64,000 nucleotides of DNA from Leptolyngbyaceae cyanobacterium M33_DOE_097 (GTDB lineage: Bacteria; Cyanobacteriota; Cyanobacteriia; Leptolyngbyales; Leptolyngbyaceae): contig DVDV01000264.1 of assembly GCA_015296075.1 (NCBI GenBank), forward strand, positions 1 to 64,000, written 5' to 3'. A program made the translations under genes and the position numbers. This document shows positions 27,004-62,742 of the stretch, piece by piece. Under the pieces are notes generated by a model. It did no database searches. It saw only the letters and a program-made list of their open reading frames with translations, and was not told where the DNA came from. Each line of letters opens with the position of its first letter. Position 1 is the stretch's first letter.

Positions 27004-27163
27004 TTTTTGGGGGCGGCGGAGCCGCAAGACCGGGGGACTTCCCCCCTGCCAAAGCATTTTCGCTGGCACAGCGTCAGTGAAAAATACTTTGTTCCCCAGC
27101 TCGTAGGGGCCTCACCCCCCTACCACCCCCGCAAGGTCGCACGGGTGAGAGTTGAATGATTGA
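27004..27163 (+). repeat. Dispersed structured repeat, copy 1
   Basis: First of three copies in the window (others near 49.9 and 62.3 kb), all in the same orientation. The unit begins with a T run and GGGGGCGGC, then CCGC, a GGGGGAC..TTCCCCC palindrome, a GTAGGGG..CCCCTAC hairpin, ACCCCCGCAAGGT and GTTGAATGA. This copy is longer because it carries about 45 extra bases in the middle. It lies inside the injection-system cluster. Confidence 0.85.
27051..27090. repeat. 40-bp imperfect palindrome nested in repeat copy 1
   Basis: AAAGCATTTTCGCTG at the left pairs imperfectly with CAGTGAAAAATACTTT at the right, around a short GCACAGCGT centre. The other two copies of the repeat lack it, which suggests insertion into this copy or deletion from the others. 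Confidence 0.55.
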
Positions 27164-27343: not shown

Positions 27344-27832
27344 CTATTGCGATCGCACAAACTCTTCGCAGGCAAGTTCCATCTCTTCGATTTCAATATC
27401 GTTTCCGGCGGAGTTGACATCAGCCAGGGTGTAGCTGGTTGGAAAGGCACCAAAAAACTCAAACCGAGCTTGCATGTTGCCATCCTGGTCATAGATGCTG
27501 AGGGAACCGTTGCGACGTTGCTCGGCCCATTTGCCCTGTTGCACAGCTTTAAACCAATTCCATACAGTCATGGATTGGGTCATGCCCCGTTTCAGCACGA
27601 TATTGTTGACTTTTACATTGCCTGGCACCTTGGTGCGAACGACATTGCCGTGCTTGGCTTGGCCCCATTTTTGGGCAGTGACTTCGCAAACTTCGACGAC
27701 TTCTTGAGTCGTTTTAAAGCCGCGACACTCCATAAAGTAAGCATCAGCGGGTCGATCGCCACCATCGAGCTTTAGCTCTAGGTAAAAGCGACAGTTGGTT
27801 AATACTTCGGGCAGGCTACCAGGAGTTGCCAT
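27344..27832 (-). CDS. Contractile injection system inner tube protein
   Basis: A 162-residue protein of the phage T4 gp19-like tail tube family. Family features are NCRFYLELKLDG near the N terminus, KVPGNVKVNNIVLKRGMT and MTVWNWFKAVQQGKW in the middle, and GSLSIYDQDGNMQARFEF then GAFPTSYTLADVNSAGND near the end. Tube proteins stack as hexameric rings through which the effector passes. It is paralogous to the upstream tube gene; extracellular contractile injection clusters usually have two such genes. It follows that gene by 79 bases. Confidence 0.92.
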   Translation of the reverse strand: MATPGSLPEVLTNCRFYLELKLDGGDRPADAYFMECRGFKTTQEVVEVCEVTAQKWGQAKHGNVVRTKVPGNVKVNNIVLKRGMTQSMTVWNWFKAVQQGKWAEQRRNGSLSIYDQDGNMQARFEFFGAFPTSYTLADVNSAGNDIEIEEMELACEEFVRSQ

Positions 27833-27911
27833 AATCGCACCTGAACTTGCAGGACAAAGAATAAATCGGCAAAAAATAGAGGGCGTGGCAAAGCGACACC
27901 CTCTATCTGCG

Positions 27912-28382
27912 TTACATCACGCGTTTAATGCCTTCATGAATCAGAGTGATCGTTTCGTTGGCAACATCCGTGCCGCCTGCTTCTAACTTCGGCCCTTCAT
28001 ATTTCGTCGGGTAGGCGTTGATCAGTTCCCAGCGGGCTTTCATTTCGCCAGCCTGATCCAACACGCTGATTGAAGCTTCCTTACGGTTTTGGCTAGACCA
28101 GGAGTTTTTACCTCCCTCGTTTTTATTGCAGTTTTGAAACCAGTCGTAGAGCGCGCGATCTGTCGTGGCAACAATCTTGACTGTAACGGGGGTGAACTTG
28201 ACCCGAGTTGGAGCGGCTTGTCGCAGGTTGATTGCGCCTTTACCTGAACCCAACACTTTGTCGCCTCCAGCCGCCGGGGACTCAGCACTTAACCCCGACA
28301 CTTCTAAAATCATCTTCTCCGTAACACCGGGAGAAGCTTCAAAGTAAAATCGACAACTGACGAGGACTTCTTCTTGTGGCAT
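27912..28382 (-). CDS. Contractile injection system tube protein, second type
   Basis: A 156-residue gp19-like tube protein starting MPQEEVLVSCRFYFEASPG. It shares with its neighbour the SCRFY start, LYDWFQNCNKNEG, EASISVLDQAGEMKARWEL and the AYPTKYEGP end, but the sequences are quite different. One of the pair probably builds the long inner tube and the other a short section next to the baseplate or tip, as for PVC1/PVC5-type pairs. It starts 193 bases after the sheath stop. Confidence 0.92.
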   Translation of the reverse strand: MPQEEVLVSCRFYFEASPGVTEKMILEVSGLSAESPAAGGDKVLGSGKGAINLRQAAPTRVKFTPVTVKIVATTDRALYDWFQNCNKNEGGKNSWSSQNRKEASISVLDQAGEMKARWELINAYPTKYEGPKLEAGGTDVANETITLIHEGIKRVM

Positions 28383-49877: not shown

Positions 49878-49927
49878 CCTGTGAATGAGCACCGTACCTT
49901 TGGGGTTGTTGGGGTTGGAGGCGACAA

Positions 49928-50040
49928 TTTGGGGGCGGCTCTGCCGCCAGATCGGGGGACGTCCCCCCGCCCCCCCGCTATGTAGGGTCCTGACTCCCCT
50001 ACAACCCCCGCAAGGTGTTGTGGGTATAAGTTGAATGAGG
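49928..50040 (+). repeat. Dispersed structured repeat, copy 2
   Basis: Second copy: TTTGGGGGCGGC, then GCCGCCAGATCGGGGGACG, CCCCCGC, the hairpin GTAGGGTCCTGACTCCCCTAC (in two parts GTAGGG and CCCCTAC), AACCCCCGCAAGGT and GTTGAATGAGG. It lies between glmM and mobA. Confidence 0.85.
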
Positions 50041-50172
50041 TCGTTCTGTCGCTTTATGGGTCAACAGTTAAAGACTTTGGGTGTCAGCAATAGGGACGGG
50101 TGAGGTAAGGCGAAAGTTGCTTTTGGTTTCGGGGCTTTGGAGTTTGAGATTTCTGTCTGGTCAGGCGGGAAG

Positions 50173-61289: not shown

Positions 61290-61946
61290 TGGCTTTCTCC
61301 AAGCAATTTGTGATGCGCTCCCTTTTGAGTTAGACAGCGATCGCTGCATTTACGTTTAAACCCAACGCAAATCTCTAACCATCCGGTAAGAATTGATTCG
61401 TGCAGTTTGAAACTCCGTTAGAGTGTGTCGATTTAAGGAACGTCAATCGAGCTACAGCGAAGGTTTATGACGACAGACAGGCACTCAAAGGGATTTCGAT
61501 CAGTTGGTAGATGCACGAAGCCTGGTAGAGCTTTATTAAATACTTACCTTTCATCATGCCACGCCCTTTATTGCGTTGAAAAATCTGCCCGGAAAAGTTA
61601 CTGAAACTTCAAACATGGGCTTTAAGGGGGTTCGGCTTTTCTAAATGAACTAAAAAATTCATCGGTCGGGGGGCTGATCGACTGACTGATCAAAACTACA
61701 GCTTGGCGAAAAGCGAACTCGTATCGGCTATGCCACAGCTTTGGATGGCATATGCCAAGATCGATTTTTCAAATTTTCCGGATGAGGCATACCAGATTGG
61801 AATAGTGGAATGGTAGATGCACCCTGAATATTTTCCCTGGCTCACTCGTGGGTTGGGGAATTTTTTTTTGCACTGCGATCGCACGAAAAAATCAGAATAC
61901 ACAGAACCTAGTCAGCACAGCGTTTGGATGGGGTTTTAAGATAGTT
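61290..61946. other. Intergenic, upstream of CHAT gene
   Basis: Gene-free stretch including the CHAT promoter. It has a run of eleven T near 61860 and no supported coding frame. The downstream end borders the MITE-like element. Confidence 0.5.
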
Positions 61947-62192: not shown

Positions 62193-62241
62193 TAAGATAG
62201 TTTGACTTGGGTGAATCGGATTTTGGGAGATAAAAGCGGAG

Positions 62242-62353
62242 TTTTGGGGGCGGCAGCGCCGCAAGATCGGGGGACTTTCCCCCGCGCCCCCGCTTTGTAG
62301 GGTCCTAACTCCCCTACAACCCCCGAAAGGTCATGCGTGTGAGTGTTGAATGG
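62242..62353 (+). repeat. Dispersed structured repeat, copy 3
   Basis: Third copy, closest to copy 2: TTTTGGGGGCGGC, then GCCGCAAGATCGGGGGACT, CCCCGC, GTAGGG...CCCCTAC hairpin, AACCCCCGAAAGGT and GTTGAATGG. Same orientation as the others, about 40 bases after the MITE-like element. Confidence 0.85.
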
Positions 62354-62742
62354 TTAGCTAGCTATCCGTTGAGGGCAGGCAGATCAACATTCTGATCGTT
62401 GACAGAGGGTACGGGTGGCGTGAGGCGACGGTTATAAAGGCGGACGGCCTACGAGGAAGATCGCAAAACTTTGCAGCGTGAAAGACTTGCGAAAGCTGTC
62501 TGTCCTGAAGAGGCGCTTTCTGGAAAGAGTGCAAAGTGTCGATTAAGCCTGCGTAGCAGGGTTTCTCCCCCACCCCCAAAGGTCGCTGCTCGGAATAAAT
62601 TGCGCTTAAAAGAAAGCCTTTTCGATCACGGCAAGGTTTGCCCACGCGTTGCTAGAAGGTAGAGTTAAGCGAAAATGTAGGGCTTACCCTGAAACCCTGT
62701 CATCTCAATCCCCAAAACGCCTCTAAAGAAAGCAAGCTTGAC
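62354..62742. other. Intergenic, nothing recognised
   Basis: Bases between the repeat copy and a small minus-strand gene. A 95-codon minus-strand frame here has irregular composition and no family likeness; it is not called. Confidence 0.5.

Follow-up and report, generated by a model that had tools for sequence, protein, structure and literature searches.

MITEs are usually viewed as leftovers that are defined by their ends. Another set of small dispersed mobile repeats in cyanobacterial genomes, that of Elhai et al. 2008, reportedly has units of 20–30 bases in heptamer arrays; our repeats resemble these as small mobile repeats of cyanobacteria, a likeness drawn from the title. The bacterial MITEs Correia/NEMIS, RUP and the cyanobacterial Nezha, set beside our repeats by description as given in parts of two sources (PMC10969869; PMC3733652), are short, non-coding and dispersed and adjoin genes, all of which applies here, and relatives of our family have the corresponding inverted repeats and target duplications. 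Unlike these MITEs, our family has one structured core that is common to unrelated end types, and no autonomous parent was found in the few genomes searched for one. The characters that define a MITE are present in the relatives, whereas the copies in the window (the whole stretch of 64,000 nucleotides analysed here, from Leptolyngbyaceae cyanobacterium M33_DOE_097) have direct-repeat ends, as is general in their genome, and no visible duplication. Rickettsia palindromic elements (RPE), compared by description rather than sequence and from parts of the same two sources, are palindromic repeats in frame in protein genes, as are copies of our family in cobN of one genus; unlike RPE, copies placed elsewhere are intergenic, and the cobN copies number two, have opposite orientations and are common to five genomes. 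REP/GTAG repeats, including the cyanobacterial GTAG-15/16, are likewise dispersed intergenic palindromes that also occur in cyanobacteria, but our unit is a far longer one of several hairpins and its tag is not conserved (PMC3733652, in part). Our repeats form a genuine family of mobile, structured elements that is undescribed within the literature searched (cyanobacterial repeats, MITEs, palindromic elements and cobN; some sources represented in part, and most subscription papers outside the search). Its copies are probably a non-autonomous, MITE-like mobile DNA family of one cyanobacterial family, with a conserved structured core. That the family is mobile DNA is well supported, because tens of dispersed, gene-free copies have a GC-rich multi-hairpin core in common and because two relatives show inverted-repeat bounds and, often, target duplications.

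The three copies originally predicted at 27.0, 49.9 and 62.2 kb of the window are real. A covariance model of the core (R1, whose alignment included two of the three) recovers all of them, at 62266–62332 (E 5e-16), 49951–50017 (E 1e-15) and 27085–27138 (E 4e-7), and gives no further credible copy in the window, the next matches having E-values of 0.21, for part of the 27 kb copy, and 0.97. The 49.9 kb copy (49922–50120, + strand), aligned with 30 other copies, consists of the left body, the hairpin core and part of the middle; the right part is absent. The 62.2 kb copy (about 62231–62627, + strand, boundaries by eye) is near full length, with the right terminal repeat present and the right hairpin module reduced. 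The 27.0 kb copy (27004–27159, + strand) carries the core in a long variant, its body reaching ∼ 155 bases because of an extra 42-base hairpin, CAAAGCATTTTCGC..GTGAAAAATACTTTG, at 27050–27091 (+ strand) between hairpins P1b and P2. The extent of the predicted body of 110 bases was put too small: the complete unit measures ∼ 500 bases, and similarity among copies continues past GTTGAATG to ∼ 62627 in the 62.2 kb copy and ∼ 50120 in the 49.9 kb copy. BLAST of the genome with the 49.9 kb copy gave at least 40 matches, including itself and the 62.2 kb copy (E 3e-27); the matches listed hold 38 others, the weakest at E 3e-24, and the 27 kb copy is absent among them. Taken alone, the 14-base motif is only weakly above chance (four matches vs 0.77 expected; 1 of 100 shuffles as high). 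Judged by open reading frames, the window copies are intergenic, as had been claimed, and the 49.9 kb copy is flanked by glmM and a mobA-type gene. Their bodies are GC-rich compared with the window (0.60–0.63 vs 0.50), but the 300 bases to the left of the 49.9 kb copy already reach 0.59. Flanking duplications, which had been suggested as a check, are absent: none is visible beside the three copies, and the longest shared words are of 7–8 bases.

In the 49.9 kb copy hairpin P1a (GGCGGC TCT GCCGCC, 49934–49948, + strand), read from the sequence, is followed by P1b (CGGGGG..CCCCCG, 49953–49969, + strand), which is seen in alignments A1 and A3 and is positive in a motif test in 57 of 59 genomic copies. 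Hairpin P2 (GTAGGG..CCCTAC, 49982–50002, + strand), assessed by pair counts on A1, shows a compensatory A-U/G-C change across genera. The box AACCCCCGCAAGGT (50003–50016, + strand) could pair with CCTTCTGGAGGGGG of the 3′ module in relatives; covariation for this pairing was zero among the 17 longer cores of alignment A2. Fold energy is unexceptional for the composition on either strand (z of −0.99 and −0.79 against dinucleotide shuffles), and the structure therefore rests on covariation. A1 comprises 47 cores from several genera; one of its P2 pairs is A-U in 24, G-C in 22 and G-U in one, and four pairs have both partners changed, where shuffles average 1.4 (0/500). A2 has 13 doubly changed cells, mostly in hairpin P4, against a shuffled mean of 4.1 (0/500), and its four covarying pairs do not exceed shuffles (123/500 as high). 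In A4 (22 cores of genus g4, two of them from locus L173, where they lie in a 429-base inverted repeat at a contig end that is perhaps an assembly artefact), one P2 pair is G-C in 14, U-A in seven and broken in one; covarying pairs are no more numerous than in shuffles, and 7/500 shuffles reached the covariation score. All of these counts come from related sequences and so do not represent independent events. The covariation asked for in the original prediction thus appears, at some stem pairs, as compensatory changes that support base pairing, with evidence that is uneven.

Nearly all copies aligned from this genome have GTAG at the P2 stem, and the copies are palindromic and intergenic, which is what would be expected of REP-type repeats moved by a RAYT (HuH) transposase. 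We regard this origin as very improbable. The GTAG belongs to the stem and is replaced by GTGG or TTGG in other genera, the unit spans 110–500 bases rather than 20–40 bases, and relatives show target duplications together with inverted repeats; a palindrome of 20–40 bases with a conserved terminal tag, by which REP (GTAG/CGTC) repeats are recognized, is not what these copies have.

A search of the whole genome (6.96 Mb, 437 contigs) with the pattern TACNACCCCCGNAAGGT, allowing at most one mismatch, found 59 places, 47 of them exact, compared with one for the reversed pattern. This contradicts the two outcomes that would have spoken against a family, namely no other copies or matches confined to GC runs. 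The number is a lower bound, since right-half matches occur at further places such as C388, C203 and C13. With 28 copies forward and 31 in reverse (p 0.79), the common orientation that had been pointed out is correct for the window and, genome-wide, a coincidence of it. Measured from the anchor, similarity spans about −90 to +130 in 55–59 of the 59 copies and +190 to +320 in 22–25. The complete unit of ∼ 500 bases runs from the left end through P1a, P1b, P2, the box ACCCCCGCAAGGT, the middle and a second GC-hairpin module to the right end. Both unit ends carry ∼ 50 bases that resemble each other, run in the same direction and enclose a palindrome, AAAAAGCCTTTTT, and a weak, imperfect inverted repeat lies inside these direct repeats. 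The direct repeat lies beside copies; no strong solo occurrence was found, and weak similarities (E 0.02–0.4) exist elsewhere, for example at C13, C36, C399 and C179. At one locus two units stand head to tail, 499 bases apart, with one ∼ 50-base repeat common to both, and two further copies have the right end of another unit directly upstream. Among 15 near-complete copies, mean pairwise identity is 0.93–0.94 over P1b and P2, 0.66–0.75 over much of the middle, 0.81–0.89 in the right third and ∼ 0.45 at the outer ends. The extra 42-base hairpin between P1b and P2 is found in nine of the 59 copies, the 27 kb copy among them. The units, of 110–500 bases, have no gene of their own; transposase reading frames inside two copies of a relative (L148, L150) are those of inserted ISs. 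With no gene carried, copies on both strands, and inverted repeats and duplications in relatives, the idea of a small non-autonomous or RNA-structured repeat family is supported.

Searched for in other cyanobacteria, as had been proposed, the 67-base core turned up in 20 of 42 genomes from the same family and in 12 of its 19 genera (at most 22 candidates scored per genome). In an even sample of the phylum, the covariance model found it in six of 386 genomes, the window's own included, a lower bound because of strict filters and 13 scored candidates per genome. The same-genus genome G001 has no core at E 0.001 (16 of 35 candidates scored; 3 of 3 in the family survey). Neither the window element nor 18 loci match Rfam 15 at the gathering score, relaxed matches lying far below the cut-offs, and PLSDB plasmids contain no similar DNA. 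Five single matches to the exact core pattern in GTDB contigs, a search that may leave out records very near the window, come from unrelated bacteria and are taken as chance. Sites of GCGATCGC, a palindrome linked to cyanobacteria (PMC4390886), number 106 against 1.35 expected.

By a simple reading-frame heuristic, the 59 copies lie in 25 convergent, 25 tandem and three divergent contexts, six being unresolved, whereas the 29 intergenic regions of at least 120 bases in the window comprise four convergent, 18 tandem and seven divergent. Convergent versus divergent placement differs between the two sets (p 0.002) in what is a crude test, based on reading frames and with the intergenic regions of a single window as its null. 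Coarser scoring of 20 copies from the relatives G015 and G010 gave five convergent, 13 tandem, no divergent and two unresolved contexts. Avoidance of promoters is expected if the insertions are those that can be tolerated, and also if they go into terminator-like palindromes. The bias towards gene 3′ ends would also suit host regulatory RNA elements (3′ UTR structures, terminators or mRNA stabilizers) that were spread by recombination and kept for their function, as would the compensatory stem pairs and the high identity of the core relative to much of the middle, although other parts of the unit also reach 0.81–0.89. We nevertheless think such a role unlikely. Tandem copies are mostly antisense (17, vs eight sense; p 0.11), so that no fixed strand would be transcribed; the cobN copies described below lie in an open frame, which speaks against an obligatory terminator there and argues against termination as a general role; and MITEs entering palindromes near 3′ ends would produce the same placement. 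Two further observations come from the window. NsiR1 (nitrogen stress-induced RNA 1) occurs as tandem copies in heterocyst formers; the window has a single match, which scores 58.3 bits (gathering score 39) and lies at 61811–61867 (+ strand), 0.4 kb upstream of the 62.2 kb copy. At 27344–28382 (− strand) two adjoining genes have T4 gp19-like tail-tube domains and may belong to a contractile injection system or to a phage remnant.

Further evidence that the repeats are mobile DNA comes from the relatives. In G001 the orthologous glmM/mobA junction measures 19 bases from the stop to the inferred start, compared with 295 bases in the window, where it contains the repeat. The flanks have diverged and a clean junction is not visible; the shorter junction could be a deletion in G001. 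The flanks of the 62.2 kb copy match different contigs of that genome. Genome G015 (one contig, 5.35 Mb) is more informative: 16 copies were taken, ∼ 10 of which are nearly identical elements of ∼ 323 bases, the rest being diverged or truncated. Over G015 and G010 together, 16 two-ended elements have type 1 ends, CTAC(T/C)GTGTA(C/T)ACA...GTAG, one-ended copies being left out and a seventeenth row having been dropped as a spurious overlapping pair; 13 of the 16 contain the core motif. Target duplications of 7–12 bases border 12 of the 16, eight of them exact, and a clear duplication is missing in the other four. Frequently the duplicated sequence forms the middle of a palindrome, for example CTCTCCCAAGTTTGGGAGAG. 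In a control of the duplication score, 7/7 elements reached the score and none of 1400 shifted flank pairs did. Type 2 ends, GCAGGGTGGTTTCA, bound eight two-ended elements in G010, six of which have the core motif. Three of the eight show 17-base duplications (one exact, two with one mismatch; two of the three have the core motif), and five lack a clear duplication. The two end types are unrelated and both surround the same core in G010, so one core is combined with two end types within one genome. Terminal inverted repeats of the MITE kind are thus present in G015 and G010.

Searches by end pattern found no autonomous element with type 1 ends in G015 and G010 (14 loci inspected) and none with type 2 ends in G010, G015, G014 and G000. 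The end pairs and single ends inspected are deleted forms or have foreign ISs inserted. Two end pairs of G015, of 1.65 kb and 2.1 kb, were considered as the autonomous partner and rejected; both are inserted ISs. Loci L148 and L149 of G015 hold one and the same IS in opposite orientations at the same position of the repeat, of ISAzo13 type by Pfam (one of the two scanned), and in L148 the transposase is split into two reading frames that overlap by 4 bases. One element of G015 holds an IS with a DDE_Tnp_1 transposase. Separately, copies at L166, L205 and L118 have another small palindrome, TGTTTTGCTTGTGAGAAC..GTTCTCACAAGCAAAA or similar, as an insert within their 3′ hairpin module; it occurs in two genera and in both orientations.

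Pairs of cores 2 kb apart in genus g4 were considered as a large IS, a reading that was rejected; the two copies lie inside cobN. In five g4 genomes the two cores, in opposite orientations, are in frame within one open frame, and the two of the five proteins scanned both match the cobaltochelatase subunit CobN, the product of a vitamin B12 gene (TIGR02257 above its cut-off; Pfam CobN/Mg-chelatase). In the protein the cores correspond to stretches such as RGTSPRSPAMWGPNSPTPPEQ and YSGGVGELGPHIAGGRGEVPR. In-frame insertion was not seen among the 59 copies of the window's genome, where two lie in reading frames of 129 and 184 residues that we judge spurious. Codons for the same amino acid differ at 12.7% in the cobN cores and 39.7% in the rest of the gene (ten pairs, five genes; uncorrected for composition), and 0/1000 random window pairs were as low. 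Amino-acid change amounts to 15% in the cores and 17% in the rest of cobN, compared with 65% in the immediate neighbours. Orthologous forward cores have GTGGGG..CCCCAC in some species and TTGGGG..CCCCAA in others; protein change therefore accompanies kept pairing. The 42-base extra hairpin recurs here at the same core position as in the window's genome, in three cobN copies (loci L171 and L172), its presence varying with species: one genome has it in both copies, another in a single copy of the two.

Strict conservation of the core might reflect gene conversion among copies instead of selection, an explanation that is compatible with a mobile origin and that we hold possible, if on balance doubtful. 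Among g4 cores, those that share a locus in different species (distance 0.116, 27 pairs) are not more alike than those from different loci of different genomes (0.110, 153 pairs), and the distance is slightly smaller between cores of a single genome (0.092, 30 pairs), one of the two L173 cores being left out of this comparison; the occurrence of the extra hairpin in both cobN copies of one genome also fits exchange. However, the within-genome effect is small, and conversion alone need not produce an orthologous P2 pair in cobN that is G-C or U-A according to species. The pattern of the cobN cores is compatible both with selection towards a shared structure and with exchange among copies. A further proposal, which we put forward tentatively, is that the core is a portable module: unrelated transposon ends would carry the same hairpin array, which selection on base pairing rather than on protein would keep over long periods, even in both orientations within the biosynthetic gene cobN.

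If the copies are MITE-like mobile DNA, as we favour, transposases supplied in trans would act on its ends, and insertion would favour palindromes and positions near gene 3′ ends. The core is not bound to one set of ends, given the two inverted-repeat types of one relative and the direct terminal repeats here, and what maintains it may be selection on the structure of the nucleic acid, exchange of sequence between copies, or both. The unusual parts of this family are the changing ends around a fixed core and the survival of that core inside cobN. In contrast to the usual view of MITEs, here it is the inside that is conserved and the ends that vary, and even within a coding gene the inside has hardly changed. 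Should selection be responsible, the core would have a function, either for the element or for the host, which would be testable in culturable cyanobacteria; should gene conversion be responsible, the family would be a clear example of short bacterial repeats that evolve in concert.
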